From Ehretia macrophylla (lineage: Eukaryota > Streptophyta > Magnoliopsida > Boraginales > Ehretiaceae): a stretch of 64,000 nucleotides of DNA. Every line of letters begins with the position of its first letter. The first letter of the stretch is position 1. The translations under genes and the position numbers were made by a program. This document shows positions 4,456 to 59,332 of this stretch, piece after piece. The notes beneath the pieces were generated by a model. That model was not told the DNA's origin and ran no database searches. It saw nothing but the letters and a program-made list of their open reading frames with translations. The stretch is from assembly GCA_037974665.1 (NCBI GenBank), contig CM075768.1, positions 9,159,501 to 9,223,500 on the forward strand, in the 5' to 3' direction.

Positions 4456-6026
4456 TTAAGTTAGATGACAAAGTAGGCCATTCAACTCAACATGCATTAA
4501 ACACACAATCAAACCCTAATCTAACCATTAACAACTCATAATTCAATCACTCAAACACTACCCAATCATCTAAAGGATCAATTCAACAATTTAAAGAAAG
4601 ACAACCTAAACTTCAAATAATCATATCTTACATTCTACTTATCCAAACAACCCCAAATCAGTTTCTAACACTCACCCATTCAGTCAACTACATTAGCCCT
4701 CTCGGAAACTAACCAAGACATCAAAATCAAGCACAACAACCCTAAAACCTCAATGCACCTAGGCTGAAATTTCGGAATTTTCACACAAACATTGTAATCG
4801 AAAATTCGGCATTATAACGGCATTACCACATAATTAAAAAACTTATAGAAATCGACGGCAATCGATTTCAACCATAACAACTCAAGTTATTCATCAAATG
4901 ACTAATCTATCAACTTTAAATACCCAAAAATAAATAATTTCGCTACAATGGTTTAAATCTCGTAGTAATACACACAAACGATCCTTAGCATGCACTGAAC
5001 AATAATATAACTTCAAATTAACATTCTAACGGTTCAAAGTGCAATTATAAGCAAAAATATCAAATATGACTTTTGAGATCTAGAATTTTTATCTCACCTT
5101 TGATGTGTTTTGATGCAAGAAATGTGTATAATGGATGCCCAACAAGTGAAATCAAGCTTTGAATGAAGTGATTTGGACTTGAATTGCAAAATCTATGTGA
5201 AAAATGCTTTGAAAAACCTTGAAATGCCTTCTTTTTGCCTCCCCTTGGAATTTCGGTAATGTGTGTGTAAAATGAGTATGTTTTGTGAGATTTTGATGAT
5301 ATATTAAGCAAAGGTCAAACAAATAAAAGAAAGTCAAAGGTGGAAACTAATTATTTTTAGTGTTTTCTTGTCTTTTAATTCATTTTCATGACTACTCTTC
5401 CTCTAATTAATTATGCAACACCTAAACTATCTCAAGTAGTTTATTATTAGGTGACAAGAAGTTTTACATTCAAACAATTTCACCCGAGTCGGCTTAAAAC
5501 TCGATTTTTGCAAAAGAATGTGAAAATTCATATTATTTGTTTTCAAATGTCTTTCGAATGCACAATTACTCTAACATCATTTAATACCACATATAAATAC
5601 ATTTATATTAATATATACTAGGTCAATGAAAGTCAATATAAGAATCGGGTTTAGAAGAAATTACTATTTGGCTCAAAAATGCTACTTTTTGCCCGAAAAG
5701 TCTATTTAAATTACTATTCCGTTTCAGAATCATTTTTTTTATCAAACATGGGTCTATTAATAATAGAGGATTAGGTTTTAAGACGTTTAAAACACCATTG
5801 TAAAAATTTTAGCCGACAGGTGGTTAAAATACTATTCACAAAAATCGAAGACAAAATTTTCAATGCCATTTTTTATGAAAATTTCATGAATGCACACTTA
5901 GCATGTATTAGGAGTATTAATCACATATTTAACACATTCTAAGTCATATAGCACATAAACATGTCAATTCACACAAAACGAGGTAAAACACGAAAATCGA
6001 GATAAGATAGAAAAGTGAGGTTTCAC
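4456..6026 (-). mobile_element. Family A LTR fragment (5' part of the LTR, minus strand)
   Basis: This segment aligns along its length with the LTRs at 50044-52953 and 54211-57124, ending at the same terminus ...GGTTTCACA, which is the TG start of the LTR read on the minus strand. The rest of the LTR lies beyond the Copia-like insertion, left of the window. It is more diverged than the other two copies, so it is an older insertion. Whether it is a solo LTR or part of a full element cannot be seen. Confidence 0.8.
4459..4487 (-). other. Conserved LTR stem-loop H1 (family A, old copy)
   Basis: On the minus strand an 11-base arm beginning AGTTGAATGGC faces GTCATCTAACT around the loop CTACTTT. 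It is equivalent to 51382-51410 and 55548-55576, where the left arm reads AGTTGGATGGC and pairs throughout. The Copia-like insertion sits three bases outside the stem. Confidence 0.6.
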
Positions 6027-7458: not shown

Positions 7459-9883
7459 TGTGACACCCGAGATCTAAAGCATGCATACATCATTCATTGC
7501 ATTCAATTTGTGCATTTATTAGTGCATTTAATTACTTAAAAGCTTATTTCAAATAGTTACTATTCACTTGATTTTTCAACCATTTTATTTTTTTGATTTC
7601 GCATTTTTTCCAAGTTACATGACTTATATGAGACATGAGAAAAATATAATATTGTGCATAGCATATCGAGAAGAGTGAAATGAAAAATGTTTTGTGATTT
7701 GCATGAATAATTACCTTAAAGAAGACATTTTGACCAACTAAACCCATATTACCTAAACCAAACCCATAACCTAAGCCCGTCTATCTAATGTATCTATCCT
7801 ACACATATATACACTAAAAACACAACACAAAAAAAAAAAAAAACCAAGGCCAAAATCAGCCCTAGGGAAAAAAGAAAGGAAAATAGAAAAATTATAGGGT
7901 TTTGCTCATTTGATCTTCCAAGCTTGATTCAACTAACTAGATTCATCCAAAAGCTTCTCATTTGCTTGCTCATCTTGTGTTGGTGAGGGATTCTTCAAAA
8001 ACTTGATTTTTTGTTTGTATATAGTTTATGTCTAAAAATGTTTATGGGTTGTATTGTTTTGTCTATGCTTATAAATGGTTGAAATCCTCCTTATTTTGTA
8101 TGTAGAGCATTATTTTATAGTTGTTTAGCAATTTCATTGGTTGAATGTGAAGATTGAGCATTTAAGAAGGTGATGAATACTAACACTTAGGGTTTTGATT
8201 AATTTTGTGCTATGAAGCTTATTATTGCTATTAATGGAGTTCTTAGGATTAGGAGAACATTCTTTTAAGGTTATTTCATGCGTTTGTGTAGTATATGTAT
8301 TGTTTGGATCTTTAAAGTTTGTGTACATTCACTCTGGACCATGAATTTGTGCTTCAAATTGTAATCTAACTCTTGATATATGCTCTAGGGGTGTTAAAAG
8401 TGTTGTACAATAAAATTTATCAAGTTCCGTTGGCATTGGAAATTATGGCCCCTTGTGTGTGAGTGAAGAAACTATTGTAATTAGAACTTCTATGCTTGGT
8501 TTAAAGGTTGGGGTAGTCTTTGGGATACTTGGGAATGTTTATGTTATGCTTATGGCAAATATTGGGTAACCGGATTTGGTAGATATCGTTCAAACGGGTA
8601 AAGGGGCAAATTGGTGTTTTATGGTAAATGAGGGGTAAATGGTGATCTTGTGTGATTGAGAGGTGCCATAAAGTGTGTATAGAAGATTGGTAGAGTTAGA
8701 TTAGGGTTTCATAGCTTGTGTGAAGTTTATGGTCTAAAATATCAATCTTTGGAATAGTGTTTAAGTGGACTTCTTGTGGGTTGGACATGAATTATTGTTT
8801 ATTGTTATTTGCTATAAAGATTTACTTATATGAATTTATTTTGAGGCAATGTGTTGTAGAATTGGGTTCCTATCTTGAATTGGGGTCTTAATGTGTTTAA
8901 GTGTCTAGTTGTGATTAGTTGACTTGTTAATGTTCCTTATGTGTTCAATGTCTTATTCTTGTGTATAGCATGTTTATTTGGATAGAGAGAAATTAGTTGA
9001 ATAGAAATTGGATTGTTTGATGTTTAAGTAGAATAGCCTGGTTTAGCCTTAATGCTTGTTAGTTAGTTAGTTAATGGACTAGAATTGAAGAGTCTATTTG
9101 TTATAGTCTTAATGGTTGTGCATCTAGTTGAAAGCTAAATGAAAGTATGCCTAGTGTGTTCATGGATAGTTAAAGGGATTGTGTGTATTGAATGCATTTG
9201 TTTCATGACTAAAGTTTGATTAATCAGTAGACAGATAGTTGGTTGAAGTGTTAGTTGTTAAGTAGGGAAGTTTGGTATAACTCTATTGCTTGAATGGTAG
9301 TGTGTATTGTTTATATAGTTGATTACTTGAGTTATGTGTTTAGTCCCTGCATTGTTGTTATTAAAGGCGTGCTTATAGTATATATTTTCGGGAATCAACC
9401 TACTTTGTTGATTTCCCCTATCTGTTTTATTTACTTGTATTTATATGTGTTTATGCGAATGAGTGGTTGCAACCAAACAGTTGTGGTTAGCTCGTGTCAC
9501 CTTGGGCAGTATCGGGCTTGCTAAGCGATGATAGGACTACCGATGAGCTATTCTATATCCCGAATGGACTGGGCGGAGTGCATCCATGAGGAATTAGGTC
9601 GTAGGTTGAGTCAGCGTACATGATGGTACTACTTGGTGTATAGGGGAAGATATTCGCGATGGTGTGTGGGAAACGACATCAACAAAATGACCGTATCCTT
9701 TTTAATGTGTTTATTTCAGTAATGCGTATTCTTTATAATGTTACTTTTCTTGTATTGTTACTTTATTGCTTATCTATTGTTTTAAGTGCATATCATGTTT
9801 TCGAAAAGATAGAATGGATTTTAAAACTCCCTACATCTACCTCCCTCACTGAGTATACATGTGTTGTATGCTCATGTGGAGTA
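7459..9883 (+). mobile_element. Element E 5' LTR, first part
   Basis: Begins TGTGACACCCGAG, matching the 3' LTR start at 18202. A splice-donor-like TTG|GTGAGG lies at 7983, the stem-loop H1 at 9390, the CGTATCCTTT motif near 9690 and a second stem-loop (GAGTATAC with GTATGCTC) at 9851-9873. It is interrupted at 9884 by element F with duplication of GAGTA and resumes at 15979. Confidence 0.8.
9390..9417 (+). other. Conserved LTR stem-loop H1 (element E)
   Basis: Arms GGGAATCAAC and GTTGATTTCCC pair at ten positions around loop CTACTTT, with one unpaired T in the 3' arm. Other families keep the loop and the bulge but use different paired arms. Confidence 0.7.
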
Positions 9884-14892: not shown

Positions 14893-14918
14893 GAGGGCGG
14901 CCTACTTTGTCGTCCCTC
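14893..14918 (+). other. Conserved LTR stem-loop H1 (element F)
   Basis: Arms GAGGGCGGC and GTCGTCCCTC pair at nine positions around loop CTACTTT, with the unpaired T in the 3' arm kept. Arm sequence differs from E and C but pairing is maintained. Confidence 0.7.
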
Positions 14919-15344
14919 TTTTGTGATATTTGAAAATCTTGGCTATCGTGAACTTGATTCGGGGTTGCGCAACCTATTCGGGCATGGTAGTATCGAGTAA
15001 CACGGGCGACGTCGGGCATGTCGTGCTCCCTCGACTACCATGGTTTTCCAGTCCCTATCTCGCTGAGGCATACTCCCTTATCCCAAAGGCGTGGTTCACC
15101 TTGTTGAGACATACGGACCTACCTTGGGAGATTATGGGTCATAGGATCGGGGTACATCCGGAGTACCACGTTTGGAGGAATAAGGGGTTTGCCGGTACTT
15201 GCTTAAAGATCATGGTTCGTGGTTCGAGATCGAAGACAAGAAGATGAACCGTATCCTTTCATAATGTGTTTGATTATTTGTTCTATTAGATTGCTTTATT
15301 GTGATATTTATGTTATTATCTTTGTTGCATCACCTCCCTCACTA

Positions 15345-15385
15345 AGTAACTTTGGTTACTCATTCCTCGTTTTAACATGTTTCAG
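15345..15385 (+). other. Stem-loop H2 and acceptor-like site in the element F LTR
   Basis: AGTAAC (15345-15350) pairs with GTTACT (15355-15360). After 25 bases of pyrimidine-rich sequence comes TTTCAG|GTACAG, an acceptor-like site. The same order and spacing occur in element G (30799-30838) and element C (38096-38141). Confidence 0.5.
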
Positions 15386-19078: not shown

Positions 19079-20608
19079 TGTGAGGCCCGGTCCTGAGTAA
19101 TTCATATTTTATTGGCATGCATTTATCTAGTTACTATTTGAATTTGCATTTACTTGACTTACCTATTATTTTGTTGCATCGATAACTGCATTATATAGCA
19201 TAATTGGATTGGTAAAGAATGGTATAACGGTTATTAGCATGAACAAGAGCATTGAAATGGTTATTTAGCATATAAGATAATTGTAATTAGTTTGTGATAG
19301 ATAGTGAGCTTCTAGATGAAATTATTTTAGCCACATAAATTACATAATAACAAAACAAAGTAAAAGAAAAGAAAGAGAGAGTGAAGGGTCGGGTAAGAGA
19401 GGAGAGAAAGGGGAAGAAAGAGAGAAAATTAGGGCAAGGAAGAAGAAAGGAAAAGAGAAAAAGAAGGGAAAATTGCCATTCTAGCTCAATTTTTTATTTC
19501 TTTGTGCTTGTACAACTAGTCTAAGGTGAAGGGATTCATTTTCTTGCATCTATATTTGAATTGAAAGTGGTAAGTTGATGTTCAAGTTATGTAATGACAA
19601 GATGGGCTAATGCAAGTGTTTGTAAGTGTCTATCTTGCACTAATCTTGAGTTATAAGTTGATACTAGCATGGTTATGTGGATAAAGCTTGCTTGTGGCTT
19701 GAATCATAAGTGTATGTTATGTGTGTTCAAGTAACTTGCAAGTTTGTTGGCACAAGAGCATGCTTCATGGAATATAGTTGGTAACCGATATGTTGTGTTG
19801 CTTGTAAATGGATTGTATGCCCCGCCTTTGCCGGTCGAGTATGGTCGGGCGAGTCTATCGTCCAACTTACTCGCCCAACCTTCTCTGTAAATACTAGGCG
19901 AATGAGTCAATTGAGTCCCTCAACCGACCTCGTCAACCAATTCCCACTGCATTTCAATTGCATTTCCTATTATAAATGTATTCTAGTATATTATTGTGTG
20001 CATTGGAGGGTGGCCTACTTTGCTATCTCCACTTATGTATGAATTGATTGGTCTCTATCGATTGTATACATGTGTTATCGAGTGGTTGCAACCATTTATC
20101 GGGGAACGGTAATGTCGTGTCTCTACTGGGTGGCGGCGGGCTTGCCAGCATTTGCTTACCCAACTTTCGCATCCTATTCCCTTACTCGCTTGGTCGGTGA
20201 AGGCCTCAGGGTGTTGGGTCGTAGGTTATCGAGGTATATCCGGAGTACACCCACTAGTGATATAAGGTGATTATCGATATCGTAAATGCATTGGAGAAAA
20301 GGAAATAGGAGTGATAAGGTGGATCGAGAACCGTATCCTTTTATTGAGTGTTCCACTTCTAGTGTTTAATGTTTACTTATTGCATGACTTGATTTACTTG
20401 TCTTATGTGCATCATGAAAAGAGTTTGTGAAACCTCCCTGTGCCCTACCTCTCACTGAGCTAGTATGAAGCTGACCCTTTTTCTTCAACATTTCAAGTAC
20501 AATCAAGGCTGAGTATGAGTCTCGAGAAGTAAGGAATGATACCTATGATTTATTTATCTGGATGCTAGCTATGTGGTGTTCAAGAATATCAGTGTTTGTG
20601 ATGTGATA
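19079..20608 (+). mobile_element. Element D 5' LTR, truncated by Athila
   Basis: Aligns with 60686-62215 of the 3' LTR. Contains donor-like AAG|GTGAAG at 19526, H1 at 20005-20030, the GC-rich block to about 20345 with CCGTATCCTTTT, and TTTCAAG at 20491-20497. Similarity to the 3' LTR stops at about 20608, where Athila begins. The GA-rich stretch at 19360-19470 is low complexity. Confidence 0.8.
20005..20030 (+). other. Conserved LTR stem-loop H1 (element D)
   Basis: Arms GGAGGGTGGC and GCTATCTCC pair at nine positions around loop CTACTTT; the bulge is in the 5' arm here. The 3' LTR copy at 61616-61639 reads GCTACCTC and still pairs. Confidence 0.6.
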
Positions 20609-30324: not shown

Positions 30325-30348
30325 AGGGTGGCCTACTTTGTCGACCCT
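30325..30348 (+). other. Conserved LTR stem-loop H1 (element G)
   Basis: Arms AGGGTGGC and GTCGACCCT pair at eight positions, including two G-T wobbles, around loop CTACTTT, with an unpaired A in the 3' arm. Confidence 0.6.
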
Positions 30349-30798
30349 CATATGTAATTATTGATTATATTTTCATTTGAGTGCATTGTGTAGTGGTTGC
30401 GCAACCATTTGGGAATGGTAGTGTCGGGGAAGCCAGGCGACGTCAGGCTTGCCGGTATACCTCAGCTACCATGGTTGCCCAGTCCCTCGCTCGCCTGGTC
30501 CGGAGATTGTCAGGGGGTGTTGGGTCGTAGGATTACAGGGTACATCCGGAGTACACCTATTGGAGTGTTTGGGTTTTATGTCGACACATTGAAGATGTTC
30601 GTGGTTCGTGGATCGAGATTCGTGATTGAAGACCAAGATTTGGAGTGTAAGGGGTTTTGAGATCGTATCCTTTTAATGTGTGGTATTTCATTGTCTAATT
30701 TTCTTCTTATTGTTTAATTGTTGTACTATGCTTAAGTATTGCATTGCACGAGCTGTTTTTCGAAAACGCCCCCGATTTACTGTATCCCCTCCCTCGCT

Positions 30799-30815
30799 GA
30801 GCAACTATGTTGCTC
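30799..30815 (+). other. Conserved LTR stem-loop H2 (element G)
   Basis: GAGCAAC pairs perfectly with GTTGCTC around TAT. It lies 23 bases before the acceptor-like AG at 30838. Counterparts with different but complementary arms occur in E, F and C. Confidence 0.6.
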
Positions 30816-35201: not shown

Positions 35202-38200
35202 TGTAACACCCGAGACCTAGAGAATGCATATATCATTCTTTTGCATATATTTGTACATTTACTTGTTTAAATGTTTTTTTGTTATAAATGTGCAATTAAG
35301 TGTTTAATTGTCTTTTATATGCAATTACATGTTTAATTAAGTTTTAATATTAAAATTATGAGTTTATTTAATTTAGTTAATTAGTAAATATACATTTATA
35401 TTATTTTCACAAAAGTTTTTAAAGAAAACTTCATTTAATTGAGTATTTACTTAATTAAAAGCTTCTTTTCAAAAATCATTATTCATTAGTTTTTTCGAAC
35501 GTTTAAATTTTTTTGATTTCGCATTTTTTTATATTACGTGACTTATGTGAGGCATGAAAAAAGTATAATTTTGAGCATAACATATCGGGAGTCTGAAATA
35601 CAAAATTATTTTTCTATCGTATGAATAGTAACTAACTAAATTGTATTTAAAGGACTTTTAAATTTCATTTATTGACTTTTTCTTCTAAATTGTAAAATAG
35701 TGTTCTAAGTATTTTAAAATTTAGTCTACTATTATTTATTGATCCAAGACTTTGTAAAATTAATTTAGAAACAAACCAGAAAGTTTAAAATATACGTTTC
35801 GCGAGGAAGAGTAACGTTTTAAAGCAAAATAGTGAAAATATTCCAATATAACTCATTCTTTGACTTGTTACTTTTCTACATATTATATAAAGCCAAAACA
35901 ATAGCTCAAAATGGCAAAAATCAGCCAAAAAGTCCAAAAAAAAAAAGCCAAAAATAAGAGTTACGGGAATAGTAACTTTTATTCAAAAAATTGCTCAATT
36001 TGATCTTCCAAGTTTGTAGAGTTGATTCCAAACCAACCAAAAGCTTCCTCCTTGCTTGCCATTGTCTTGTGTGGTGAGGGATTTTATCAAAAATTGCATT
36101 TTAGTTAATTTTGAGTTTATGTCAAAATATGCAAATCGTGATAAATGATTTGTTTCTTGTTATTATTGCTTCAAATATGCTTAAATATGTATGTAGAGCA
36201 AACTTTTGTTGTTAGTTAGCTTTTTGAATGGTTGAAAATGGTGGTTGGTGCATTGAAGAAGATGATGAATAGAAAATTCTAGGGTTTTTGCTAATTTTTG
36301 CCAATGAGGTTGATTTCATACAATCTAGAGATGCTTTAGGTGCTAATGAACTTAGAATAATGATTAAATGCAGTTAGATTGAAAGAAACTTGGATAAATT
36401 TGCATAATTGACTAAAAATACTTACTTTATAAAGGGATTTTCGGGTTAAACGTAAATACGGGTGAATTTGGTTGATATATTTGGTGTTCTTAGAGTGAGG
36501 AGGTTCTAGAAGTGCTTTTCTAACGCTTGGTTGGGCATCGGTTAAGGTACTTGTAGTTATAATGCATTACGAGGAAATCGGGGCTTTTGCGGTTAATGTG
36601 GATAAATAGGTGAACTTGAGGGTTCTAGGGGTGTCATAAAGTATGGTTTGGAAGATAGGATAACTCGTTTGGGGATCTTGAACCTTGTCTTTTGGTTTGG
36701 AGCTAAATAGTATAGTTTAACAAAGGGGTTTTGCGTAAAAGGGTTAACCGTGTGTAATTGAATGACAAAATTGGTACCTACTGGGCATGGAAGCACTTTT
36801 GGTGCTCATGTGGCATTGAATTGAGGGGCGGTTTAGGTAGCTATAATTCAAAAATGACTCGAGGCCTTCCCGAGCTTTTGTGTCAAAAATGGGTTTTTAA
36901 TGCTTGAATAGGTGTCTTTTAGTGACCTTAGTGATATAGGATAGTTGGGTTGTGGAAGTGTACCTTATGTTTCTTACAAGCGTAAAATTTGTGTTAATGG
37001 ACAAAGGGGTTAAATGACTAAGGTTGAGATTCGTGTTGTAATTGTGTAAATGCTACTTTACATGTTTTGTAAAGCTTATGGAATGATTGGATCGTGGGTT
37101 GTGTGGCTTTGTTTTGGTATAAGCTTGAATTGGGCTAATGGGGCTACTTGGAGTTTAATGTTAGACTTGGGTTAAAGTGTGACTTCATGTGATTGAGGGG
37201 TATCATAAGAAGTTTGGAAGTGATTAGTGTGGTTAAGTTGTGAATTGAAATGCCTTAGGTGTTAATGTGTTGCTTGTATGAGATCTTTATATTGAAATCT
37301 AATGTTATATTGCTATTTGTCATAAAGTGTTTAGTTGTATTGTGTGAACTAAATTGTAAATGTATTGTGGAATGCTACTTTTGGCACGAGATGAGGTTTG
37401 GAAGAGTTCATGGTCTATCGAGGTGAGGGTTGCATCATACTTGGCATCTTAATTGAGTTATTATTTTTCATTATGGTGGTTATTGTGTAGTTAATGAGTT
37501 ACTGTTTATTTACCTTAATTGTATTGTTTTTGTGCTCGTTATATACTATCTAGAAAGTATTATTTGTTATCTAGTTACAATTGCTTGTAATTCATTAATT
37601 TATGAGGGCGATCTACTTTGTTGTCCCTCATTTATTATTTTGCTTCGTATCGCTTCCTATTATTGTCATATTGTCATTGTCTTTAAGTGTATTGCATAGT
37701 GGTTACGCAACCATAGTGTCAGGGGCGGATGTATTGGATATCGGCTGGGCAGCAACAGGCTTGCCAATGGACATTCGATCTCCATGCTCGAGTCCCTCAC
37801 TCGCCTGGTCCGAAGATTGCCAGGGAGTGTTGGGTCGTAGGATTTCGGGGTACATCCGGAGTACACCCACTGGAGTGTTTAAGGTTTATGCCAGCACAGT
37901 GATCGAGATTCGTGGATCGTTGTTCGAGAATTGAAGAATTGAAGTAATAAGGGTTATCGATTGTATCATTTTTAAATGTGGTAATTAATTGCTTTCTATT
38001 CTTTATTGCTTATTGTTATTATTGTTTGATGTTCCAAAGTTGCATTGCACGAATCCCCTTATAAATGTTTCCCGTAACTGTTCCCCTCCCTCACTGAGTA
38101 TACATTATTTATATACTCATTCCTCATCATGAATCTTTTAGGTTATAGTCAAAGAAAGTAAAGTTCGTGTTTCATGATAGTTCGTGCTTGAAAGGATGCA

Positions 38201-38646
38201 TAATGTGTTATGTAGCATGGATTGTAAAATGTTGGAAAGATGTTCTTTTGATGAGGTATATGTATTCAAAGTATAACTAATGGATTTCAAGTTAATTAGA
38301 TCCTTAGGGTAGTTTGATTTCATAGTTTATGTAATAGGATAGCGTAGTTTATATTCAATGCATGTATGTAGTTATTTTAAGGAAGAGTAGGTTAATCTTT
38401 GTATTCGGAAATGTACATTTGAATGTGAACTTTTGTTGCGAACCAAGGCTCGGATGTCCTTGAGGAGTTGTTGTATGTTTGGACACAGTACTGGTCCATT
38501 TATATGTTGTGTGCAGGTAAACTGTTCGTCCTATAAACAGGGGAAACTCCATCCGTTTTCCTTAAATTTTGTGATCGGGTTGGAATTGGGTTAAGAATAG
38601 CATGGTTAATAGAGTCTCCGGTCTCGTGAGAGATCGGGGCGTTACA
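35202..38646 (+). mobile_element. Element C 5' LTR
   Basis: TGTAACACCCGAG...GGGGCGTTACA. TATA-like TATATAAAG at 35884-35892, donor-like GTG|GTGAGGG at 36074, H1 at 37602-37631, GC-rich block about 37690-37975, H2 at 38096-38118 and TTTTAG|GTTATAG at 38141. If the TATA box is real, both stem-loops are in the transcribed leader. Confidence 0.85.
37602..37631 (+). other. Conserved LTR stem-loop H1 (element C)
   Basis: Arms ATGAGGGCGAT and GTTGTCCCTCAT pair at eleven positions (two wobbles) around loop CTACTTT, with the unpaired T in the 3' arm. The 3' LTR copy (42286-42310) has decayed but keeps the loop. Confidence 0.7.
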
Positions 38647-39882: not shown

Positions 39883-42800
39883 TATGACGCCTGAGACCTA
39901 GAGAATGCATATATCATTCATTTGCATATATTTGTACATTTATTTGTTTAAATGCTTATTTGTTATAAATGTGCAATTAAGTGTTTAATTGTCTTTTATA
40001 TGCAATTACATGTTTAATTAAGTTTTAATATCAAAATTATGAGTTCATTTAATTTAGTTAATTAGTAAATATACATTTATATTATTTTCACAAAAGCTCT
40101 TAAAGAAAACTTCATTTAATTGAGCATTTAGTCAATTAAAAGCTTATTTTCAAAAATCATTATTCATAATGTTTTTCGAACGTTTAATTTTTCCGATTTC
40201 GCATTTTTTTTATATTATGTGACTTATGTAAGGCATGAGAAAAGTGTAATTTTGAGCATAGCATATCGAGAGTCTGAGATACAAAATTATTTTTCTATCG
40301 TATGAATAGTAACTAACTAAATTGCATTTAAAGGACTTTTAAATTTCATTTATTTACTTTTTCTTCTAAATTGTAAAACTAGTCTTCTAAATATTTTAAA
40401 ATTTAGTCTACTATTATTTATTGATCCAAGACTTTGTAAAATTAATTTAGAAACAAACCAGAAAGTTTAAAATAGACGTTTCGCGAGAAAAAGTAACGTT
40501 TTAAAGCAAAATAGTAAAAATATTCCAAAATAACTCATTCCTTGACTTGTTGACTTTTCTACATATTATATAAAGCCAAAAAATAGCTCAAAATGGCAAA
40601 AATCAGCCAAAAAGTCCCAAAAAAAAAAGCTAAAAATAAGAGTTACGGGAATAGTAACTTTTCTTAAAAAAATTGCTCAATTTGATCTTCCAAGCTTCTA
40701 GAGTTGATTCCAAACCAACCAAAAGCTTCCTTCTTGCTTGCCATTGTCTTGTGTAGTAAGGGATTTTCTCAAAAATTACATTTTAGTTGATTTTGAGTTT
40801 ATGTCAAAATTTGCAAATCTTGATAAATGCTTTATTCCTTGTTATTATTGCTTCAAATATGCTTAAATATGTATGTAGAGCAAACTTTTGTAGTTAGTTA
40901 GCTTTTTGAATGGTTGAAAATGGTGGTTGGTGCATTGAAGAAGATGATGAATAGTAAATTCTAGGGTTTTTGCTAATTTTTTCCATTGAGGTTGATTTCA
41001 TACAATCTAGAAATGCTTTAGGTGCTAATGAACTTAGAATAATGATTAAATGTAGTTAGATTGAAAGAAACTTGGATAAATTTACATAATTGACTAAAAA
41101 TGCTTACTTTATAAAGGGGTTTTCGGGTCAAACGTAGATCCGGGTGAATTTGGTTGATATATTTGGTGTTCTTAGGGTGAGGAGGTGCTAGAAGTACTTT
41201 TCTAACACTTGGTTGGGCATCGGTTAAGGTACTTGTAGTTATAACCCATTAAGGAAAAATCGAGGCTTTTTGCGGTTAACGTGGATAAACGAGTGAACTC
41301 GAGGGTTCTAAGGGTGTCATAAAGTGTGGTTTGGAAGATAGGATAACTCGTTCGGTGATCTTGAACCTTGTCTTTCGGTTTGAAGCTAAATAGCATAGTT
41401 TAGCAAAGGGGTTTTGCTTAAAAGGGTTAACCATGTGTAATTGAATGATAGAATTGGTACCTACTGGTCATGGAAGCACTTTTGGTGCTTATGTGGCATT
41501 GAATTGAGGGACAATTTAGGTAGCTATAATTCAAAGTGACTCGGGGCCTTCCCGAGCTTTTGTGTCAAAATGGGTTTTTAATGCTTGAATATGTGTCTTT
41601 TAGTGACCTTAGTGATGTAGGATAGTTGGGTTGTGGAAATGTACCTTATGTTTCTTACAGGCGTAAAATTTGTATTGGTGGACAAATGGGTTAAATGACT
41701 AAGGTTGGGATTCGTAATGTAATTGTGTAAATGCTACTTTACATGTTTTGTAAAGCTTATGGAACGATTGGATCGTGGGTTGTGTGGCTTTGGTTTGGTA
41801 TAAGCTTGAATTGGGCTAATAGGGCTACTTGGAGTTTAATGTTAGACTTGGACTAAAGTGTGACTTCGCGTGATTGAGGGGTATCATAAGGAGTTTGGAA
41901 GTGATTAGTGTGGTTGAGTTGTGAATTGAAATGCCTTAGGTATTGATATGTTGCTTGTATGAGTTCTTTATATTGAAATCTAATGTTATATTGCTACTTG
42001 TCATAAAGTGTTTAGTTGTATTGTGTGAACTAAATTGTAAATGTATTGTGGAATGCTAGTTTTGGCATGAGATGAGGTTAGTAAGAGTTCTTGGTCTATC
42101 GAGGTGAGGGTTGTATCGTACTTGGCATCTTAATTGAGTTATTGTTTTTCATTATGGTGGTTATTGTGTAGTTAATGAGTAACAGTTTATTTACTTTAAT
42201 TGTATTGTTTTTTGTGCTCGTTATATACCATCTAGAAAGTATTATTTGTTATCTAGTTACAATTGCTTGTAATTCATTGATTTCTAAGGGCAATCTACTT
42301 TGTTGTCCTTCATTTATTATTTTGCTTCATATCGCTTCCTATTATTGTCATATTGTCATTGTCTTTAAGTGTATTGCATAGTGGTTGTGCAACCATAGTG
42401 TCAGGGGCAGATGTATTGGATATCGGCTGGACGGCAGCGGGCTTGCTAGTGGACATTCGATCTTCATGCTCGAGTCCCTCACTCGCCTGGTCCGAAGATT
42501 GCCAGGGAGTGTTGGGTCATAAGATTTCGGGGTACATCCGAAGTGCACCTACTGGAGTGTTTGGGATTTATGCTGACACAATGATCAAGATTCATTAATC
42601 GTAGTTTGAGAATTGAAGAATTGGAGTGATAAGGGTTATCAATTGTATCCTTTTTAAATGTGGTAATTAATTGCTTTCTATTGTTTATTGCTTATTGTTA
42701 TTAATGTTTGATGTTCCAAAGTTGCATTGCACGAATCCCCTTATAAATGTTTCCCGTAACTGTTCCCCTCCCTCATTGAGAAAACATTATTTGTATATTC

Positions 42801-43328: not shown

Positions 43329-43333
43329 TAATG

Positions 43334-44897
43334 AGGTTCTTATACAAGGGGACCTTGCATCTTAACGGAAAACACACAAGACAAATCACATACATATATA
43401 TATACACATTTCGCAACATCCATGAGCAACGAGTAAGGTGAGGAATTTTTATAAAATTGCATGTAGGTTTATCTCGATTATGTAGGTATATGGTTAGAAT
43501 AATGTTAATTTATATGTATAACAATCAGCATGAGGTCATGTGAGGAGATTTTATTGAAAGCCACATCTTATATGTTTATATGATTATTATATACTTATAG
43601 CGTTATTTGTTATTTTAATATTCTAGCTTGAGATCTATAACATGCTTGTTAATATTCTTCATTTATTAAAAGTAGTATTTGAATTAAAATTGACTTTGAT
43701 AATGTATTAGCTAAGAGTTAATTGTTACTAATTAATGTGGAATTTATCACTTTAAGTGACAACAAAGAGTGATTGTAAATACGTTCTTCTAACTGCTTGT
43801 AACTCTTGAATATTGAACTGAAGGACGTTGATTTGATTATGTTATTAACCTTAAGGAATTTGAATATGATTAACTTGAATTATCTTGAACTTCTGATTGT
43901 TGAAAGTATATGTTTGGGGACAACCTCTTTTGTTGTTTTCCACCTACGTGCTTATCGAATTGCGTATCAGCTGTGTGTTATGTGGCAACTTGTGCATGCT
44001 TGTATGTTACTTGATTAAGGGTTGCAACCTCAGGCATGATAGCTATCACGAACGCGGGGAGGCATAGGGCTTGTCGGTGCTCCCGTGACTATCGTGGTCC
44101 TATTCCCTCTCCCGCTTAGCGATCTCCACCCTCGGGGAGTTGGGTTATAGAATTCGGGTACAATACGGAGTACCCTGTTATGAGAGATAAGAAGTTGTGA
44201 TCTTGATTTGGGGCTGGTCACGTCTAGAAGTGTTATTGAAATGTATCCTTTGCAATGTGACATGATTAAGTACTCTCGCTTGGCATTCCACCCTTGGAGA
44301 GGAAAATTGATTGTTTATTTAAATGTCATTACTATTATTGATATGCGACTCGAATGTGATAATAATTTTATACTAGTTATCATATGTATTTTATGTGGAT
44401 AGTTTTTTAATATTACCGTACGTGAATTGTATCATGACTATCAAAAGGGCCTGACCAAAAGCGTTTTCAAAACTCTTCTATTCCATCCTCATTAAGCTTC
44501 CCCGATAGCTCACCCTCTTTTATTCCCCTATTACAGGTGCAGCTTAGCTTGAAATGGAAGTTGACATTTTGTGCTAAAGTGGAATGATTGCGTGCTCGAA
44601 GCTTTTTGCAGACATGTTTTGATCCAAGTTGTAAAAGTTATAGTTTGTTTGTATTATTCTCGGGTAGAAGGATAGCTGCTGCAGAAACCCTAGTTAGTAG
44701 AATAGCTGGGTAGCTTTCATGGCTCGGATGATGTAACACCCTTTGTATCGGAATTACTATTCATTAACTAGTTGTTATTAAAAATCTTTATACTTTACTT
44801 CTTTTAATATTATGAAAGGTTATATAAATGAGACCGCAATGATAGTAAACGCAGACTTTGACCTAATCTTGAGAAGGGTCGGGTTGGGGTCGTTATA
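43334..44897 (+). mobile_element. Element B middle LTR, second part
   Basis: Continues the LTR cut by C and matches 47443-49004. Contains donor-like AAG|GTGAGG at 43438, H1 variant at 43916-43941 (loop CTCTTTT), the GC-rich block, TGTATCCTTTGC and TTACAG|GTGCAG at 44536. Ends GTCGTTATA, followed by primer site TGGTATCAGAGC (44900-44911). Confidence 0.85.
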
Positions 44898-45652: not shown

Positions 45653-48600
45653 TGTAATACCTGAGCCCGACCATCCATTTGCAAGTATTTATTTCATTCA
45701 TTATTCTTGGAAAACGTGCCTTTGTGATTATTTGATTGCATTTCATTTATAATTAATTGTCTCATTATTTAAGATCAACTTGAATTTTAATTAATAGTGA
45801 CCTACTAGGCGTTCTTAGTTCTCCTAATGTGATTTCAATGAAACTTAGAAAATATACTAAGTCAAGCATATCAAACTAAGCATTCATTTCAAAAGAGAAA
45901 GATTAACTCGATTAGTACATTTTTGTGTAATGAAAAATAGAAATATTAAATTTAGAATCTTTCCTTTCATTTAAAAACTTATATAGAAATGGTTTAGTTT
46001 GATTAATTAGGGTTTATAGGGCAATGATATAGTGACTAGGCAGATAATTAATAAACATCATTTAATTGTTTTGTTAATTGTCTTGGTAGGAATAACAATC
46101 TTAATTTAGTAAATGGAGGGTTCGTATACTAGTTAGGAGTTGCTATAAAATAATTGTACTAATCTTAGGAATACATAAGTCGTTAATAAATTTGCTGTTA
46201 GTTTAATCTACTATGTAATTTAGATAAATTGGAAAATTAGGGTTGGTCCTAAATGCTAAATTAAAGAAATTAACTTTTATTAGTAGATTAATTCTAAAAT
46301 GAATTGGGCATTATAGGAAATTTAATAAAATAAAATAATAGCATGAGTTATGATTCATTAAAAATCTATTAGTTGAATCATTAAAGATATGTTACTGCCC
46401 AAATTAGGAGATCTCGTATCGTATTTTGTAGTATCGAATCATTGCCATCCTTAGTAATCTTATCTTAGTAAAAGAAGAAAATTAGTTTATTGGTTAACTG
46501 GCTTGAACCAACTAGTACCTAAAATATATTTATAGTACGTTGTATCTATTATTTGAAAATAACATGTGTATATGAATTGTATATAAATTATAATGACGTC
46601 TTACTTAATCATTCGATCTCATAATCACAAAGCCCTATATTGAGATTATCTTTCAAATTGGGAATCTAACATTTACAAATGCGTAACGTAATTTGATAAA
46701 TGATATAGTTGTATAGTTTAGTAGTTATACTACTTAACCCATAATCTGTGCACATAAACTTCATCACCTAGCAGGCAAAATATGATTTCTCCTTGGCAAA
46801 GAGTCTTATCTGCTAGATACCTTATTGTGCCACCCAAACTAGAGATAGCAACATTCCAAGAAAATTAATATCTAATGATGCACAATAGATAGCACCTAAG
46901 CATCGACGACAGTCATTTGATTTGTCTTTATTAGAATTAAGCACATCAAGTACTATTTATAACGAACTCACATTAATCTGCAGCCTACACGTCCTTTACC
47001 TCCCACGTAGGGAAATATCATACCAATACCTAGTTTAGCTTAGTCATTCGGCAATACCTTCAAGGACAGCCACCTGGTTCATTTTTGTTGTTAGCATAAG
47101 CATTACAAGCACACATAGCAGCGGATAACTTCCATGAAATTATAGAAGCCATTAGCAATCGCCACCTAAGGTTAAATCACCTATATGCTTAAGCTGCAAT
47201 GATTTCTTATCCTAAGTATACACAAACTTAAACTTATCAGTAGTGAATCAGCACCATCCTACCATAAGGTGTTAACACTACCTTCTTCATCATTGTTTAT
47301 TATAAGCCAATAACATCACAGTTCAACCATGCACAATATTCTGCCTCCACGTAGCAGTCTGCCTCACGCTACCTATCACCATAGTTGTAATCATAGTAAA
47401 TAATTATGAGCACCATCCGGAACCAATTAAAAACTGAACGAGGTTCCTATATAAGGGGACCTTGCATCTTAACGGAAACCACACAAGACAAATCACATAC
47501 ATATATATATACACATTTTGCAACAACCATGAGCAACGAGTAAGGTGAGGAATTTTTATAAAACTGCATATAGGGTTATCTCGATTATGCAAGTATATGG
47601 TTAGAATAATGTTAATTTATATGTATAACAATCGACATGAGGTCATGTGGGGAGATTTTATTGAAAGCAGCATCTTATATGTTTATATGATTATTATATA
47701 CTTATAGCATGATTTGTTATTTTAATATTCTAGCTTGAGATATATAACATGCTTGTTAATATTCTTCATTTATTAAAAGTAGTATTTGAATTAAAATTGA
47801 ATTTGATAATGTATTAGGTAAAAGTTAACTGTTACTAATTAATGTGGAATTTATCACTTTAAGTGACAACAAAGAGTGATTGTAAATACGTTCTTCTAAC
47901 TGCTTGTAACTCTTGAATATTGAACTGAAGGACGTTGATTTGATTATGTTATTAACCTTAAGGAATTTGAATATGATTAACTTGAATTATCTTGAACTTC
48001 TGATTGTTGAAAATATATGTTTAGGGACAACCTCTTTTGTTGTTCTCCACCTACGTGCTTATTGAATTGCGTATCTGCTGTGTGGTATATGGTAACTTGT
48101 GCATGCTTGTATGTTACTTGATTAAGGGTTGCAACCTCAGGCATGATAGCTATCACGAACGCGGGGAGGCATAGGGCTTGTCGGTGCTCCCGTGACTATC
48201 GTGGTCCTATTCCCTCTCCCGCTTAGCGATCTCCACCCTCGGGGAGTTGGGTTATAGAATTCGGGTACAATCCGGAGTACCCTATTGGGAGAGATAAGAA
48301 GTTGTGATCTTGATTCGGGGCTGGCCACCTCTGGAAGTATTATCGAAACGTATCCTTTGCAACGTGATATGATTAAGTACTCTCGCTTGGCATTCCACCC
48401 TTGGAGAGAAAAATTGATTGTTTATCTAAATGTCATTACTATTATTGATATGTGACTCGACTATGACAATTATTTTGTACTTGTTATCATATGTATTTTA
48501 TGTGGATAGTTTGTTAATACTACCGTATGTGAATTGCATCATGACTTTCAAAAGCGCCTGACCAAAAGCGTTTTCAAAACTCTTCTATTTTATTCTTACT

Positions 48601-49004
48601 GAAATTTCCCAAGAGCTCACCTTCTTTTCTCCCTCCATTATAGGTGCAGCTTAGCTTGAAATAGAAGTTGACATTATGTGCTAAAGTGGAATGATTGCGT
48701 GCTCGAAGCTTCTTGCTGACATGTTTTGATCCAAGTTGTAAAAGTTATAGTTTGTTTGTATTATTCTCAGGTAGAAGGATAGCTGCTGCTGAAACCCAAG
48801 TTGGCAGAATAGTTGGGTAGCTTTCATGTCTGGGATGATGTAACACCCTTTGTATCGAAATTACTATTCAATAACTAGTTGTTATTAAAAATCATTATAC
48901 TTTACTTCTTTTAATATTATGAAAGGTTATATATATGAGACCGCAATGACAGTAAACGCAGACTTTGACCTAATCTTGAGAAGGGTCGGGTTGGGGTCGT
49001 TACA
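45653..49004 (+). mobile_element. Element B right LTR (3352 bp)
   Basis: TGTAATACC...GTCGTTACA. Uninterrupted equivalent of 33405-35201 plus 43334-44897, and therefore the empty-site reference for element C. Donor-like AAG|GTGAGG at 47545, H1 variant at 48024-48048, TATAG|GTGCAG at 48643. Its last ~168 bases (48838-49004) begin TGTAACACCC and end GTTACA, resembling LTR termini inside the LTR. Confidence 0.85.
48024..48048 (+). other. Conserved LTR stem-loop H1 (element B)
   Basis: GGGACAAC faces GTTGTTCTCC around CTCTTTT, the one family with a changed loop. CAAC/GTTG is perfect; the outer pairs include wobbles. Copy at 43916-43941. Confidence 0.5.
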
Positions 49005-51381: not shown

Positions 51382-51410
51382 AGTTAGATGACAAAGTAGG
51401 CCATCCAACT
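51382..51410 (-). other. Conserved LTR stem-loop H1 (element A)
   Basis: Minus strand arms AGTTGGATGGC and GTCATCTAACT pair at all eleven positions (with G-T wobbles) around loop CTACTTT. No bulge in this family. Copies at 55548-55576 and, older, 4459-4487. Confidence 0.7.
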
Positions 51411-54210: not shown

Positions 54211-57124
54211 TGTCACGCCCCAACTCGACCCCTCCTACGATCAGTCAGGACGCAACGGAATTTCAGCAACATAACGACAGTAACATGAACATCAGGGCTC
54301 TAAACCAACCCTTAAGAACAACATACATCAGACTCCATAAATCACCAACCAACTCCACAATCAAATTAACAACATACAACACAACCACTTCACACATTAA
54401 ATATTCTTTCATCAACTCTTTCATAGTTACGCGCCTCCGTTTCAACATAATGCTTAGGCTATACATTTATTTCAAAATAGATTATAACCAACTTAGTAAT
54501 CTAGTCATGATCAAAATAAAAGACTACTAAATCAACATACATATGTCTTTATATTAAGATAGGTTATACAACACATTGTTTTACAACAACTAAGACAATC
54601 TCATGGCAATGACTCCTGCACATAAGACTCATCCACATATGGCACATTTCCCTCTTCAAGAGACACGTACCCATAGTCAGGCTCAGTAACACCTACATGC
54701 ATGCAATAATTGAGAGTGAGCTTATATAAAACAAGCCCAGTGAGGATTCGATAGATCTCTAACAGTATTTACTGTACTCATTGGAAATCATCCTTTGAGC
54801 AGTAAACACACAATGAACATCAATAATCATTATAAATGCAACAATATATTTATAACTGTAAACACACAATAAGGATACGATACATTTGCTGATGAAGCTC
54901 TATACACCAATTCCATGCTCAACAACTCCTCCAAACTCAATGATACAATCCTGAGGTACCTTGACCTAGACCCACACCCATGGCCTCTCCGCCCATGCGA
55001 GATAGAGATTAGCCATGATAACTATGCCCGCAGCCCAGGATGCCTCCCGAGGTGACACAACATTATCAAAGCTCACAACAATAGGACTCAATTCGAGAAG
55101 TCAACAACATTGGTTGCCCGACTCTCGACTCATAATAACAATAACAATAACAATTCAAGAAGTCAACAATATTGGCTGCCCGACTCTCGACTCATAATAA
55201 CAATAACAATAACAATTTGAGAAGTCAACAACATTGGCTGCCCGACTCTCGACTCATAATAACAATAAAAATAACAATTTGAGAAGTCAACAACATTGGC
55301 TGCCCGACCCTCGACTCATAATAACAATAACAATAACAATTCGAGAAGTCAACAACATTGGCTGCCCGACTTCCGACTAATAAAAACAATAATAATCAAT
55401 TAACAATGTAACACCCCAGATTAACCCCGAACGTGCTCCTCACGGTTTTGTAACAACAATCAATAATCAATAATCAATCAATCCGTATTTTAACAATCAA
55501 TTAAACAACATTTAACAATCAACAACTATATAATCATGAAACAATTAAGTTAGATGACAAAGTAGGCCATCCAACTCAACAGGCATTAAACACACAACCA
55601 AACCCTAGTCTAACCATCAACAACTCACAATTTAATCACTCAAACACTACATGATCATCTAAAGGCATATAACAACATTTTAAAGAAAGACAACCTAATC
55701 TTCTAATAATCATAACTTACAGTCTACTAATCCAAACAACTCCAAACCAGTTTCTATCACTCACCCACTCAATCAACAACATTAGCCCTCTCGGAAACCA
55801 ACCATAATCTATCCAAATCAAGCCCAACAACCCAACAACCCTAATGCACCTTGGCTGAAATTTTTGGACTTTCACACCGACATCACAATCAAAATTTCGG
55901 CATTACAACGGCACTACCCCGTATTTAACAAACTTTTACAAATCGACGGCAATCGATTCCAACCACTACAACTCAAAATAATCACCAAATAGCTAATAAC
56001 TCAATTTTAATACCCGAAAAATAAAAATTTATGCTACAACGGTTAAAATCTTATAAGAATACATATAAACGATCTTTAGCATGCACTGAGCAATAATATA
56101 ATATCAATTCAACTTTCTAACGGTTCAAAATTCAATTATATGCAAAAACATAAAATGACATTTTGAGATCTAGAATTTTTCTCTCACCTTTGATATGTTT
56201 TGATGCAAGAAAGATGTAGAACGGATGCCCAACAAGCAAAATCAAGCTTTGAATGAAGTGATTTGGACTTGAATTGCAAAATCTATGAGAAAAATGCTTT
56301 GAAAAGCCTTGAAAATGCCTTATTCCTCCTCCTCCTTGAACTCACAGTTTTGTGTGTGTTTTTGGGGTGTTTTTGGCTTGTTTTAATGTGTGTTGATGAT
56401 ATAAACTCAAAGTCAACAAATATATTAAAAGTCAAAGTTGATTTTCTAGTCTTTTAATTAATGTTTTTAGTCTTTTAAGTAGTTTTTCTTAACTATTTTG
56501 CTTTCTCAAGTAAAAAATACTGTATTTAGTAGTTTAAGAATAGGTGACAACATTACACATGCATACTCATACACCCGCTCGGGTAAAAACTCAGTTTTTG
56601 CAAAAGAAGGTGAAAAGTTATATTTATTTGTTTTCAAATGTCTTTTAAATACATTTTTCAATTGTGCCATTTTATAAATATTTAAAATGAAATATAATTT
56701 GTATTTAATATATACTAGGTCAATGAAAGTCAACACAAGAATCGTTTTGAACAAAAATCACTATTTTAGCTTAAAAACGTACTTTTTCGCCCGTAAAATC
56801 TATTTAAATTCCTATTCCGTTTCAAAATTAATTTTTATCAAACATGGGTCTATTAATAATAGAGGACTAGGTTTTCAAACCCTAAAAATACCCTTGTCAA
56901 AATTTTAGCGGACGTGCATTTAAAATACTATTCATAAAAATCAACTGTAAAATTTCCGATGCCGATTTTGATAAAAATTTCATGAATGCACACATAGCAT
57001 GTATTAGGAATATAAATCACATATCTAGCATATTCTAACTCATATAACAAATAAACAGGTCAAATCACGTAAAACGAGGCAATACACGCAAAAACGAGTT
57101 TAAGATAAAAAGTGGGGTTTCACA
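54211..57124 (-). mobile_element. Element A 5' LTR
   Basis: Same layout as the LTR at 50044-52953: donor-like AAGGTGAG at 56187, H1 at 55548-55576, 62 bp minisatellite at 55098-55400, GC-rich part 54940-55080. Few differences from the other LTR are visible by eye. Confidence 0.88.
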
Positions 57125-57790
57125 CCGGTATTGTTTGTAAAGAAGAAAGATGGCACTTTGCGTTTGTGTATTGATTATTGGGGTCTCAATCAAGTGACTG
57201 TAGAGAATAAATATCTATTACCTTTGATTGAGGAACTGTTTGATCAACTATAGGGTACTACAGTATATTCCAAATTTGATTTGAGATAGGGTTATTACCA
57301 GCTAAGAATCCGAAAGGAAGATGTGCCCAAGACTGCCTTTAGTACCAGGTATAGCCATTATGAATTTGTTGTGCTGCCATTTGGATTGACAAATGCCCCA
57401 GCTGCTTTTATGGACTTGATCCAGAGAGTGTTTAAACCATACCTAGACGAGTTTGTTATAATTTTCATTGATGATATACTGGTATATTCGAAGTCTGAGG
57501 CATAGCATAAAGAACATTTAAGGATTGTGTTGTAGACTTTGCAAGAACATAAGTTATTTGCTAAATTTAGCAAATTTGAGTTTTGGTTGAAACAGGTTGC
57601 CTTCTTGGTGCATATAATCTCTCAGGATGGGATTTTTGTGGATCCAGCAAAGATAGAGGTGGTGTTGGCCTGGAAAAGGCCTGAAACTATTACAGAGGTT
57701 CGTAGCTTTCTGGGATTAGCTAGTTACTACAGGAGATTTGTCAAAGATTTTTTGAAGATTGCAGGACCTTTGACTCAAGCTTACACATAA
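57125..57790 (+). pseudogene. Element G reverse transcriptase, C-terminal part
   Basis: Continues from 50043: [17 protein letters not shown], then [28 protein letters not shown], and the catalytic FIDDILVYS (about 57466-57492) with both aspartates. The thumb follows with [19 protein letters not shown] and [20 protein letters not shown] interrupts at 57252, 57289, 57502 and 57533; most can be derived from CAG. The frame is lost near 57790. Confidence 0.88.
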
Positions 57791-58424
57791 GAAAATAGTA
57801 TTTAACTGGAATGATAAGTGTAAGGCCAGTTTTCAAGAATTGAAGAAAAGACTAACCATTGCTCTTATTCTCGATTTACCTGAGGGGACTGATAACTTCG
57901 TGATTTGCAGTGATGCCTCTAAAGAGAGTTTAGGTTGTATTCTTATGCAAAATGGTAAGGTGATAGCATATGTCTCGAGGAAATTAAAACCCGATGAGCT
58001 TAATTATCCTACATATGATCTTGAGCTTGTTGTTATTGTCTTTGCTTTAAAGAAATGGCAACAATATTTGTGGGGTAACAAGTTTGAAATTTTTACTGAT
58101 CATAAAAGTTTAAAATATATGTTTTCACATAAAGATCTAAACATGAGGCAAAGGCGTTGGCTAGAGTTGTTAGATGATTATAACTGCACTATTAGCTATT
58201 TGTCAGGCAAAGCTAACATTGTTGTAGATGCTCTAAGCCGAAAGGCTACTATGACCAGTTTGATTGTAAAGAACTGGGAGACTATTGTGAAGTTATGTCT
58301 ATGGAACCCGAAAGCTTCTAAGACAGGTATTCAATTTACAAGCTTACAAATTCAGTCTCTACTGCTATCTAGAATCAGAGAGGCACAACAATTTGATCCT
58401 CAACTATTGAAGGCCTTAGAATAG
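57791..58424 (+). pseudogene. Element G RNase H
   Basis: 194 uninterrupted codons from 57840: CSDASKESLGCILMQ (first aspartate), YPTYDLELVVIVFALKKW (glutamate), EIFTDHKSLKYMF (aspartate) and ANIVVDALSRK, the standard gypsy RNase H with its linker to integrase. The catalytic residues appear intact. It is in a different frame from the RT. Confidence 0.88.
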
Positions 58425-59332
58425 TCAAAAGGGGGATAGTCGGATTTCAAGTTACATGATGATGGCATACTCAAATACAAGAACAGAATTTGTATTCCTG
58501 GTGATTCGACTTTGAAGAATGAGATTTTTGCAGAGAACATAGTTCTAAATATACTATCCATCTCCGTAGTACTAAGATATATAGAGACTTGAAACAAAAC
58601 TTTTGGTGGAACAATATGAATAGGAAAATAGCTGATTATGTGTCTAAGTGTCTAACCTATCAAAAAGTTAAGGCTGAGCATCAAAGACCTGCAGGATTGT
58701 TGCAGCCATTGGCTATTCCTGTGTGGAAATGGGATCATATCACTATGGATTTCATGACTGACTTACAGAGGACTTCAAGAGGTAATGATTTAGTTTGGGT
58801 TGTTGTTGATAGACTGACAAAGACTTCTCATTTTATTGCCACGAAGAAAACAAACAACCTTGACAAGTTAGTTGAGTTGTATATCAAGAATATTGTGAGA
58901 CTGCATAGGACTCCAGTTAGTATTGTGTTAGATAGAGATCCCAGGTTCACATCTCAATTCTGGCAGAAATTACAGAAGGCCTTGGGGACTAATTTGAGCT
59001 TTAGCACTGCATATCACCCGCAGACAAATGGCCAGCCAAAAAGAACTATTAGAATATTAGAAGACATGTTGCGAGCTTGCATTCTAGACTTTGGTAAGAG
59101 TTGGAAAAGATACTTTTCACTGGCAGAGTTTACATATAATAATAGCTATCAGGCTACCATTGGCATGGCGCCTTATGAGGAACTTTACGGGCATAAATAT
59201 AGATCTCCACTTTATTGGGATGAAATTGGGAAAATGAAGACAGTCGATACTACTTTGATGCCTAAAATGATAAAGATGATTGATAATGTGCAACTTATCA
59301 AGAAACGAATGCTTACAACTCAGAGCCGATAA
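58425..59332 (+). pseudogene. Element G integrase
   Basis: The zinc-binding HHCC domain is degraded at its start by a frameshift and stops; FWWNNMNRKIADYVSKCLTYQ-like sequence follows from 58600. Core: WDHITMDFMTDL (first Asp), VDRLTKTSHFIA, VLDRDPRFTSQFW (second Asp). YHPQTNGQPKRTI has Lys where the catalytic Glu is expected (about 59040), a G-to-A change that would abolish strand transfer. The C-terminal part runs intact to a TAA at 59330 that likely replaces CAA. 247 codons are open. Confidence 0.88.

Follow-up and report, generated by a model that had tools for sequence, protein, structure and literature searches.

LTR retrotransposons of one plant lineage carry a short hairpin, here called SL1, in which a near-invariant loop sits on a stem whose letters change freely while its pairing is kept. 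We hold with high confidence that SL1 is a selected RNA hairpin; selection acts on the sense strand, and the hairpin is shared by autonomous and non-autonomous elements. It is borne by tens of thousands of LTR copies of the lineage in the one genome in which it was observed, that of the host plant Ehretia macrophylla, and a conserved LTR stretch of about 350 nt, described here for the first time, has SL1 as its first helix and also holds a palindrome, a second hairpin (SL2), and splice-site-like motifs. The explanation that we favor, with a confidence somewhat short of even, is that this stretch acts in cis as an RNA domain in a Tekay-like chromovirus lineage and in the non-autonomous elements related to it, probably serving the selection of genome RNA. 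We infer that the SL1 region is transcribed, that a protein would recognize it, and that it would take part in packaging or dimerization.

SL1 copies in the window

The window, a stretch of 64,000 nucleotides on contig C5 of the host genome, is a nest of LTR elements. All 12 hairpin copies that a first-pass annotation had located there are present with the letters as quoted. On the plus strand, they lie at 9390..9417 in family E (arms GGGAATCAAC/GTTGATTTCCC around CTACTTT), 14893..14918 in F (with a T bulge in the 3′ arm), 20005..20030 and 61616..61639 in D, 30325..30348 in G (with an A bulge in the 3′ arm), 37602..37631 and 42286..42310 in the 5′ and 3′ LTRs of C, and 43916..43941 in B as well as 48024..48048 in its second LTR. 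On the minus strand, family A has copies at 51382..51410, 55548..55576, and 4459..4487, the last with one pair broken. The letters were read for every copy, and the copies are further documented by a scan (all except the A copy at 4459, which falls under its threshold), by fold energy (E, F, the first copies of D and B, the 5′ copy of C, and the A copy at 51382), and by a covariation count over bulged rows (F, G, and the 5′ copy of C). The loop is CTACTTT in 10 of the 12 copies and CTCTTTT in both B copies. The annotation had also held that most copies keep one unpaired base at the same place in the 3′ arm; this is true of F, G, C, and B, whereas the base sits one pair lower in E, is lacking in A, and is replaced in D by an unpaired G in the 5′ arm.

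The scan, which required the loop followed by G and a stem score of at least 6, recovered 11 of the 12 known copies, missing only the A copy with the broken pair, and had no other match in the window. Sequences of equal length simulated from a first-order Markov model gave a mean of 0.017 SL1-like hairpins (maximum 1, 60 trials) against these 11. The bare word CTACTTT occurs only 27 times in the window compared to 12.9 expected, and the signal is therefore carried more by the structure than by the word. Fold energy by itself is weak support for some copies, with z values of −0.41 in B, −1.07 in G, and −2.0 in D; those of E, F, C, and A range from −3.6 to −6.4. That no named element resembles SL1, as had been remarked, is in line with Rfam 15, which yields no window match above the gathering threshold; a permissive Rfam search of 35200-49010 (E up to 2) returned one chance-level snoRNA match, away from SL1.

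Carrier elements and genome-wide abundance

Element C, nested within an LTR of B, consists of a 1.24-kb interior between two LTRs of 3.44 kb each; the LTRs of B itself are about 3.35 kb long with an interior of 0.75 kb, and element A, which lies on the minus strand, has an interior of 1.25 kb between LTRs of about 2.9 kb. No open frame of at least 180 codons was found in these three interiors. The 5′ LTR of C (35203..38646, plus strand) is followed by the PBS-like GGTGGTATCAGAGC, and the 3′ LTR of B (45653..49004, plus strand) starts after the purine tract AATGGGAGGAAGA; a delimitation of B with a 163-bp LTR was dropped in favor of this start. A broken pol remnant with RNase H, IN zinc finger, and rve (57774..59332, plus strand) lies upstream of the D LTR that bears the SL1 copy at 61616.

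An autonomous relative of the A type, locus L037, has LTRs beginning TGTGAAACCCC, a CACAA target duplication, and a 1628-codon open frame in which a domain scan of five separate pieces finds the order gag-PR-RT-RNase H-IN, as in Ty3/gypsy (Metaviridae) elements. Its C-terminal tail, VKVLWKHHGIEEATWE..YPDLF, we take by eye to resemble a plant chromodomain; Pfam reports none there. Judged by the integrase and this tail, the SL1 carriers may tentatively be read as a Tekay-like lineage, that is, Ty3/gypsy chromoviruses of the Tekay/Del kind. SL1 is common to autonomous (L037, with gag-pol) and non-autonomous elements (A, B, and C), as had been proposed, and that it is carried both by elements that have genes and by elements that lack them suggests a trans-acting reader. 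The annotation counted seven families, all of which do share SL1, but they are neither unrelated nor independent gains: C, D, E, F, and G have diverged LTR patches in common, A shares a short patch with C, and the families belong to one lineage.

Other repeats and elements lie in or near these carriers. The LTRs of A contain five tandem 62-bp units between SL1 and the LTR end (50923-51230 and 55089-55396), and the E LTR is interrupted at 9876-13588 by a separate short element with a repeat pair starting TGTAACAAC (9884 and 12358). Arrays of a satellite with a unit of about 677 bp flank A-type copies in L022, L024, L026, L027, L031, and L039 (contig C1), which would give clean element ends. At 23285-25558, gag-like and protease frames belong to another gypsy element, the protease being confirmed by Pfam and the Athila-like character judged by eye only.

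Across the host genome (1.58 Gb in 20 contigs), an arm-neutral pattern around YCTACTTTG has 65,056 matches and its reversal 19,705, an excess of about 45,000; among the matches listed of these 65,056, the stem was matched in 49 of 60. The word GGCCTACTTTGTC occurs 19,693 times and its reversal 12 times. In places, SL1 is found in tandem series, with a spacing of 98 or 184 nt among the genome matches and of 108 nt, with two different stems, in L040; such series are what a binding site would be expected to show.

Selection on paired RNA

Mean pairwise identity among 17 representative copies is 0.97 for the loop and following G, 0.59 and 0.54 for the arms (range 0.54-0.60), and about 0.30-0.45 for the flanks, and the loop and arms are thus better conserved than the sequence around them. 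The representative sets of 19, 17, and 14 copies used here and below were hand-picked for arms that differ, and not every copy stands for a family of its own; close relatives within them are the plus-strand L025 copy and L029, the three L036 copies, and L037 and L040.

Pairing was evaluated against a null built on a tree of the flank sequences, in which the number of changes per column is kept and the changes are placed at random. The set comprised 40 copies, namely 37 rows (copies near locus ends skipped, identical 32-mers kept once) and three decayed copies recognized by their similar flanks; neither the 37 rows nor the 40 copies include the A copy at 4459. All four inner pairs are formed in 37 of the 40, compared to a mean of 18.9 and a maximum of 35 in 2000 simulations, and 96.1% of the cells of the nine-pair stem are paired, compared to 77.5% under the null (maximum 90%). 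In a separate count of 13 distinct bulged rows, 94% of cells are paired, falling to 44 to 67% when the arms are slid; the covariation score is 0.578 against 0.395 in shuffles (reached by 0 of 500) and 16 cells are altered on both sides against 6.2, while two of the five measures lie within the shuffles (35/500 and 108/500). Decay of the stem at the SL1 site is rare, since of the CTACTTT words in the sampled loci (58 with a stem and 72 without), only 3 of the 72 stemless ones stand at the homologous place, as judged by eye from flank matches.

The strand is indicated by the mismatches that are tolerated. Distinct rows contain 46 G.U cells and 8 A.C cells, and sense-strand pairing rules yield 8.5 of 9 pairs compared to 7.4 for antisense rules. 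At the third stem pair of one subfamily, the genome counts, which are of related copies multiplied by transposition and hence not of independent events, are 19,561 for A-U, 1,280 for G.U, 64 for A.C, and 126 for G-C. Both single changes are CpG-creating transitions, and yet G.U is 20 times commoner than A.C (odds ratio about 30). That G.U is tolerated and A.C is not argues for selection acting on the sense-strand RNA, and the earlier proposal of a selected RNA structure is borne out by this asymmetry together with the excess of pairing and the conservation of loop and arms.

The same data bear on the view that SL1 is a DNA-level feature, such as a cruciform, a small-RNA source, or an inverted repeat to which a dimeric factor binds. 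The stem is indeed also an inverted repeat in DNA, and factor sites are abundant in LTR promoters. However, the pairing is kept although the arm letters are free, neither DNA pairing nor DNA binding explains the G.U/A.C asymmetry in copies or in cells, and the stem is too short for a miRNA-type precursor; we regard this view as close to refuted and very improbable. To mere shared ancestry, in which SL1 would be a slow-changing, functionless patch of LTRs that are indeed related, we give next to no weight in view of its identity relative to the flanks and of pairing beyond the tree-based null.

A conserved stretch downstream of SL1

In the 420 nt downstream of 19 sampled copies, the order is SL1, a GGTTGC(GC)AACC palindrome, a GC-rich middle, SL2, and then the nonamer described below. 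The palindrome lies 59-95 nt past SL1 in 15 of the 19 copies and is fully self-complementary in 12. In family F, it lies at 14963..14974 on the plus strand (GGTTGCGCAACC, 12 nt), with counterparts at 9465 in E, 20084 in D, 30395 in G, 37701 in C (imperfect), and 44020 in B. SL2 occupies 15151..15167 in F (plus strand), with arms GGTAC and GTACC around the loop ATCCGGA, which contains the palindrome UCCGGA, and 37847..37868 in C (plus strand), where GGGGTAC and GTACACCC enclose the same loop. Its stem variants include GGGGTAC/GTACCCC and GGGATAC/GTATCCC. A self-complementary SL2 loop is present in 11 of the 19 copies, as UCCGGA in 10 (ATCCGGA) and UCUAGA in one (ATCTAGA). Together, the palindrome and the self-complementary loop point to RNA–RNA pairing. 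The A-type elements keep SL1 and mostly the nonamer, and the palindrome and UCCGGA loop are absent from the three A-type copies examined; those parts are therefore not essential to every element.

As a whole, the domain of family F folds with an energy no better than that of shuffled sequences (z −0.15), and in an RNAalifold consensus of 17 copies, SL1 and one other short hairpin (GGGC) were all that was retained. In family C, the CCUAC of the SL1 loop (37613) has its complement, GUAGG, some 200 nt further downstream in the conserved GGGTCGTAGGAT block (37831-37842), a possible pseudoknot of which none was seen in the A type; the loop-pairing word AAAGTAG, sought in L037, is absent.

A U12-type donor-like nonamer

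Of 58 copies in which SL1 is intact, 45 have the exact nonamer GTATCCTTT downstream, 292 to 418 nt past the loop. The nonamer agrees with the U12-type 5′ splice-site consensus RTATCCTTT as given in PMC2846911. It lies at 15251..15259 in F (plus strand), at 9693 in E, 20333 in D, 30665 in G, and 44243 in B, and at 37963 in C as GTATCATTT. In all 14 representative copies, the GC content drops from 52% before the nonamer to 35% after it, and a pyrimidine-AG follows 135-294 nt on. The T-rich, intron-like segment so delimited in F is 135 nt long (15251..15385, plus strand) and ends TTTTAACATGTTTCAG, its 3′ end being picked by eye; counterparts are 30665-30838 in G, 37963-38141 in C, 44243-44536 in B, and 20333-20497 in D. 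Outside the A type, a CCCTC[AG]CT-like word stands past the T-rich part. A third hairpin of at least 7 pairs ends 21-26 nt before the AG in 10 of the 14 copies, and its stem varies, with arm pairs such as TGAGCAAC/GTTGCTCA, TGAGTATAC/GTATACTTA, and TGGGCTTAT/ATAAGCTCA.

Past the AG, an acidic reading frame in constant phase runs to a stop in 7 of the 14 copies (L037, L040, G, L029, both L025 copies, and L042). The tails read YVPPEEENVENVFYVDESYVPESYP in L037, EAEVNPQLIEEEEVYVDQNP in L029, EAEVDPQLVAIEEGEEVQVDQLP in G (30839-30912 in the window), and VVEADPLEVIEDEEQVEVFP in L042, each followed by the stop. This frame may be either the tail of a coding sequence or a splicing enhancer rich in purines. 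A coding exon ahead of the donor was considered and rejected: the phase of the acidic frame is open there for 103 codons in L029 and 35 in the minus-strand L025 copy, and for at most 22 in the other 12.

These features would fit a control of splicing, in which a leader exon ends at the U12-type donor, the T-rich segment with its changing hairpin is the intron, and the pyrimidine-AG is the acceptor; SL1 would then tune or shield a slow donor and so set the share of unspliced genome RNA. The exact nonamer, the composition break at it, the placement of the hairpin ahead of the AG, and the shared phase of the acidic frame are all on the side of this reading. Against it, the U12 branch site UCCUUAACU was not found near the 3′ end in the 14 copies (mean best match 5.57 of 9, compared to 5.64 in shuffles), and we therefore do not class the segment as a U12 intron. 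Moreover, the frame ahead of the donor is mostly closed, the acidic frame is missing in 7 of the 14 copies, and the 3′ sites were chosen on visual inspection of the alignment and listing, a procedure that favors a match. On balance, we consider splicing control the main rival to genome-RNA selection, but a rather unlikely function of the stretch.

Position of SL1 in the LTR and the transcript

SL1 had been placed 0.8-1.3 kb before the LTR end, in a presumed transcribed leader. Among elements with an established end, the distance from the loop is 973 nt in B, 1029 in L037, 1034 in C, and 1072 in F, in agreement with that range, while the 1358 nt of A, which include about five of the 62-bp repeats, exceed it. 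The loop thus lies about 1.0 kb from the LTR end in four of five such elements. In the five elements whose LTR start is established (D2, L037, A, B, and C), the loop lies between 0.9 and 2.4 kb from that start. No conserved TATA box that would fix a transcript start upstream of SL1 was found, and TATA-like words occur downstream of it in some families. A start site based on these was discarded, the best A-type word, TATATAAG, being the stem of the third hairpin.

If transcription did start downstream of the domain, SL1 would lie in U3, be present only toward the 3′ end of the RNA, and act as a 3′ UTR element on stability, export, translation, or the choice of poly(A) site. Consistent with this, SL1 follows the end of the gag-pol frame by 1.29 kb in L037, a consistent TATA box was not found upstream of SL1, and some families have the TATA-like words downstream. 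However, a near-constant distance to the LTR end with an inconstant distance to its start is more like a fixed R-U5 preceded by a loose U3, the downstream A-type word is accounted for by the third hairpin, and a donor-like site would be odd in a 3′ UTR. A role in the 3′ UTR therefore seems unlikely to us.

Search beyond the host genome

Integrase similarity identified 12 loci in GTDB genome contigs, eight of which (L001-L008) are 53-60% identical and are probably plant-type Ty3/gypsy fragments contaminating bacterial assemblies; an earlier integrase query of the same contigs had no match. A scan of the 12 loci for related loops with a stem of at least 7 pairs gave none; of these loci, only four (L005, L006, L008, and L012) have a PBS-like motif, so that few extend to the relevant part of the LTR. 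Among viral contigs, no match was obtained with either of two integrase queries or with two patterns of the exact hairpin. Literature searches on LTR hairpins, Tekay LTR structure, plant packaging signals, and U12 introns in retrotransposons returned no paper on SL1 among the matches listed.

Discussion

A fixed loop motif, here of 8 nt, on a changeable stem is the behavior of RNA hairpins that are read by proteins. We propose that the loop YCUACUUUG, carried on a freely varying stem, would be read by a protein of the autonomous members, with Gag as the first candidate, or by a host RNA-binding protein, while the palindromes GGUUGC(GC)AACC and UCCGGA, the latter in the 7-nt loop of SL2, would let two RNAs pair. 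The domain would run from SL1 through the palindrome, the GC-rich middle, and SL2 to the donor-like GUAUCCUUU, and non-autonomous elements would retain SL1 since they depend on being taken up in trans. For genome-RNA selection as the function of the SL1 domain, our confidence is tentative, slightly below that in the explanation as a whole.

Retroviral packaging domains sit between the PBS and gag in the unspliced RNA. The SL1 domain resembles Psi/DIS (HIV-1 SL1-SL3 and MLV Psi) in having several fixed-loop hairpins on free stems, palindromes of which one forms a self-complementary 7-nt apical loop (though not in A-type copies), and an adjoining splice donor-like site, and in being kept by non-autonomous elements. 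It differs in that SL1 is inside the LTR, upstream of the PBS and, in five elements, 973-1358 nt short of the LTR end, in that A-type copies do without the palindromes, and in that Gag binding of SL1 is putative. Also speaking against genome selection are the lack of a conserved TATA box to fix the start, the fold of the whole F domain, which is like that of shuffled sequence, the few hairpins kept by RNAalifold, the non-independent genome counts, the two bulged-row measures within shuffles, and the restriction of the data to one genome.

Other known systems are comparable in part. BARE2, a non-autonomous member of the plant Ty1/copia BARE group, is said in PMC3735527 to keep dimerization and packaging signals; BARE is copia and the SL1 lineage gypsy, and the two are likened by description. 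A profile study of LTRs relates what conservation remains in long R regions to stem-loops (PMC3601003); its chromovirus model (Sushi) derives mainly from zebrafish LTRs, and plant Tekay-type LTRs are not mentioned in the portion consulted. The intron-like segment, for its part, shares with U12-type GT-AG introns the exact GTATCCTTT nonamer and a short T-rich segment ending in AG, but lacks their canonical branch site.

A broader reading would combine these elements into an LTR-borne, retrovirus-like control region with recognition by SL1, dimer palindromes, a U12-type donor, and a hairpin-gated acceptor. We think this improbable as a whole. If it were true, how much RNA becomes spliced mRNA and how much is packaged as genome RNA would be governed by the slow minor spliceosome, with the non-autonomous relatives parasitizing the same signals; use of the donor-like nonamer would in itself be a case of a mobile element exploiting the minor spliceosome.

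Judging by titles and the beginnings of abstracts among the matches listed, little mapping seems to have been done of the cis signals by which RNA is selected in plant Ty3/gypsy elements. With its near-invariant loop on a free stem and natural copies in the tens of thousands, SL1 is a ready-made mutational series, and it offers a way to study how the machinery of autonomous elements is used by non-autonomous ones.
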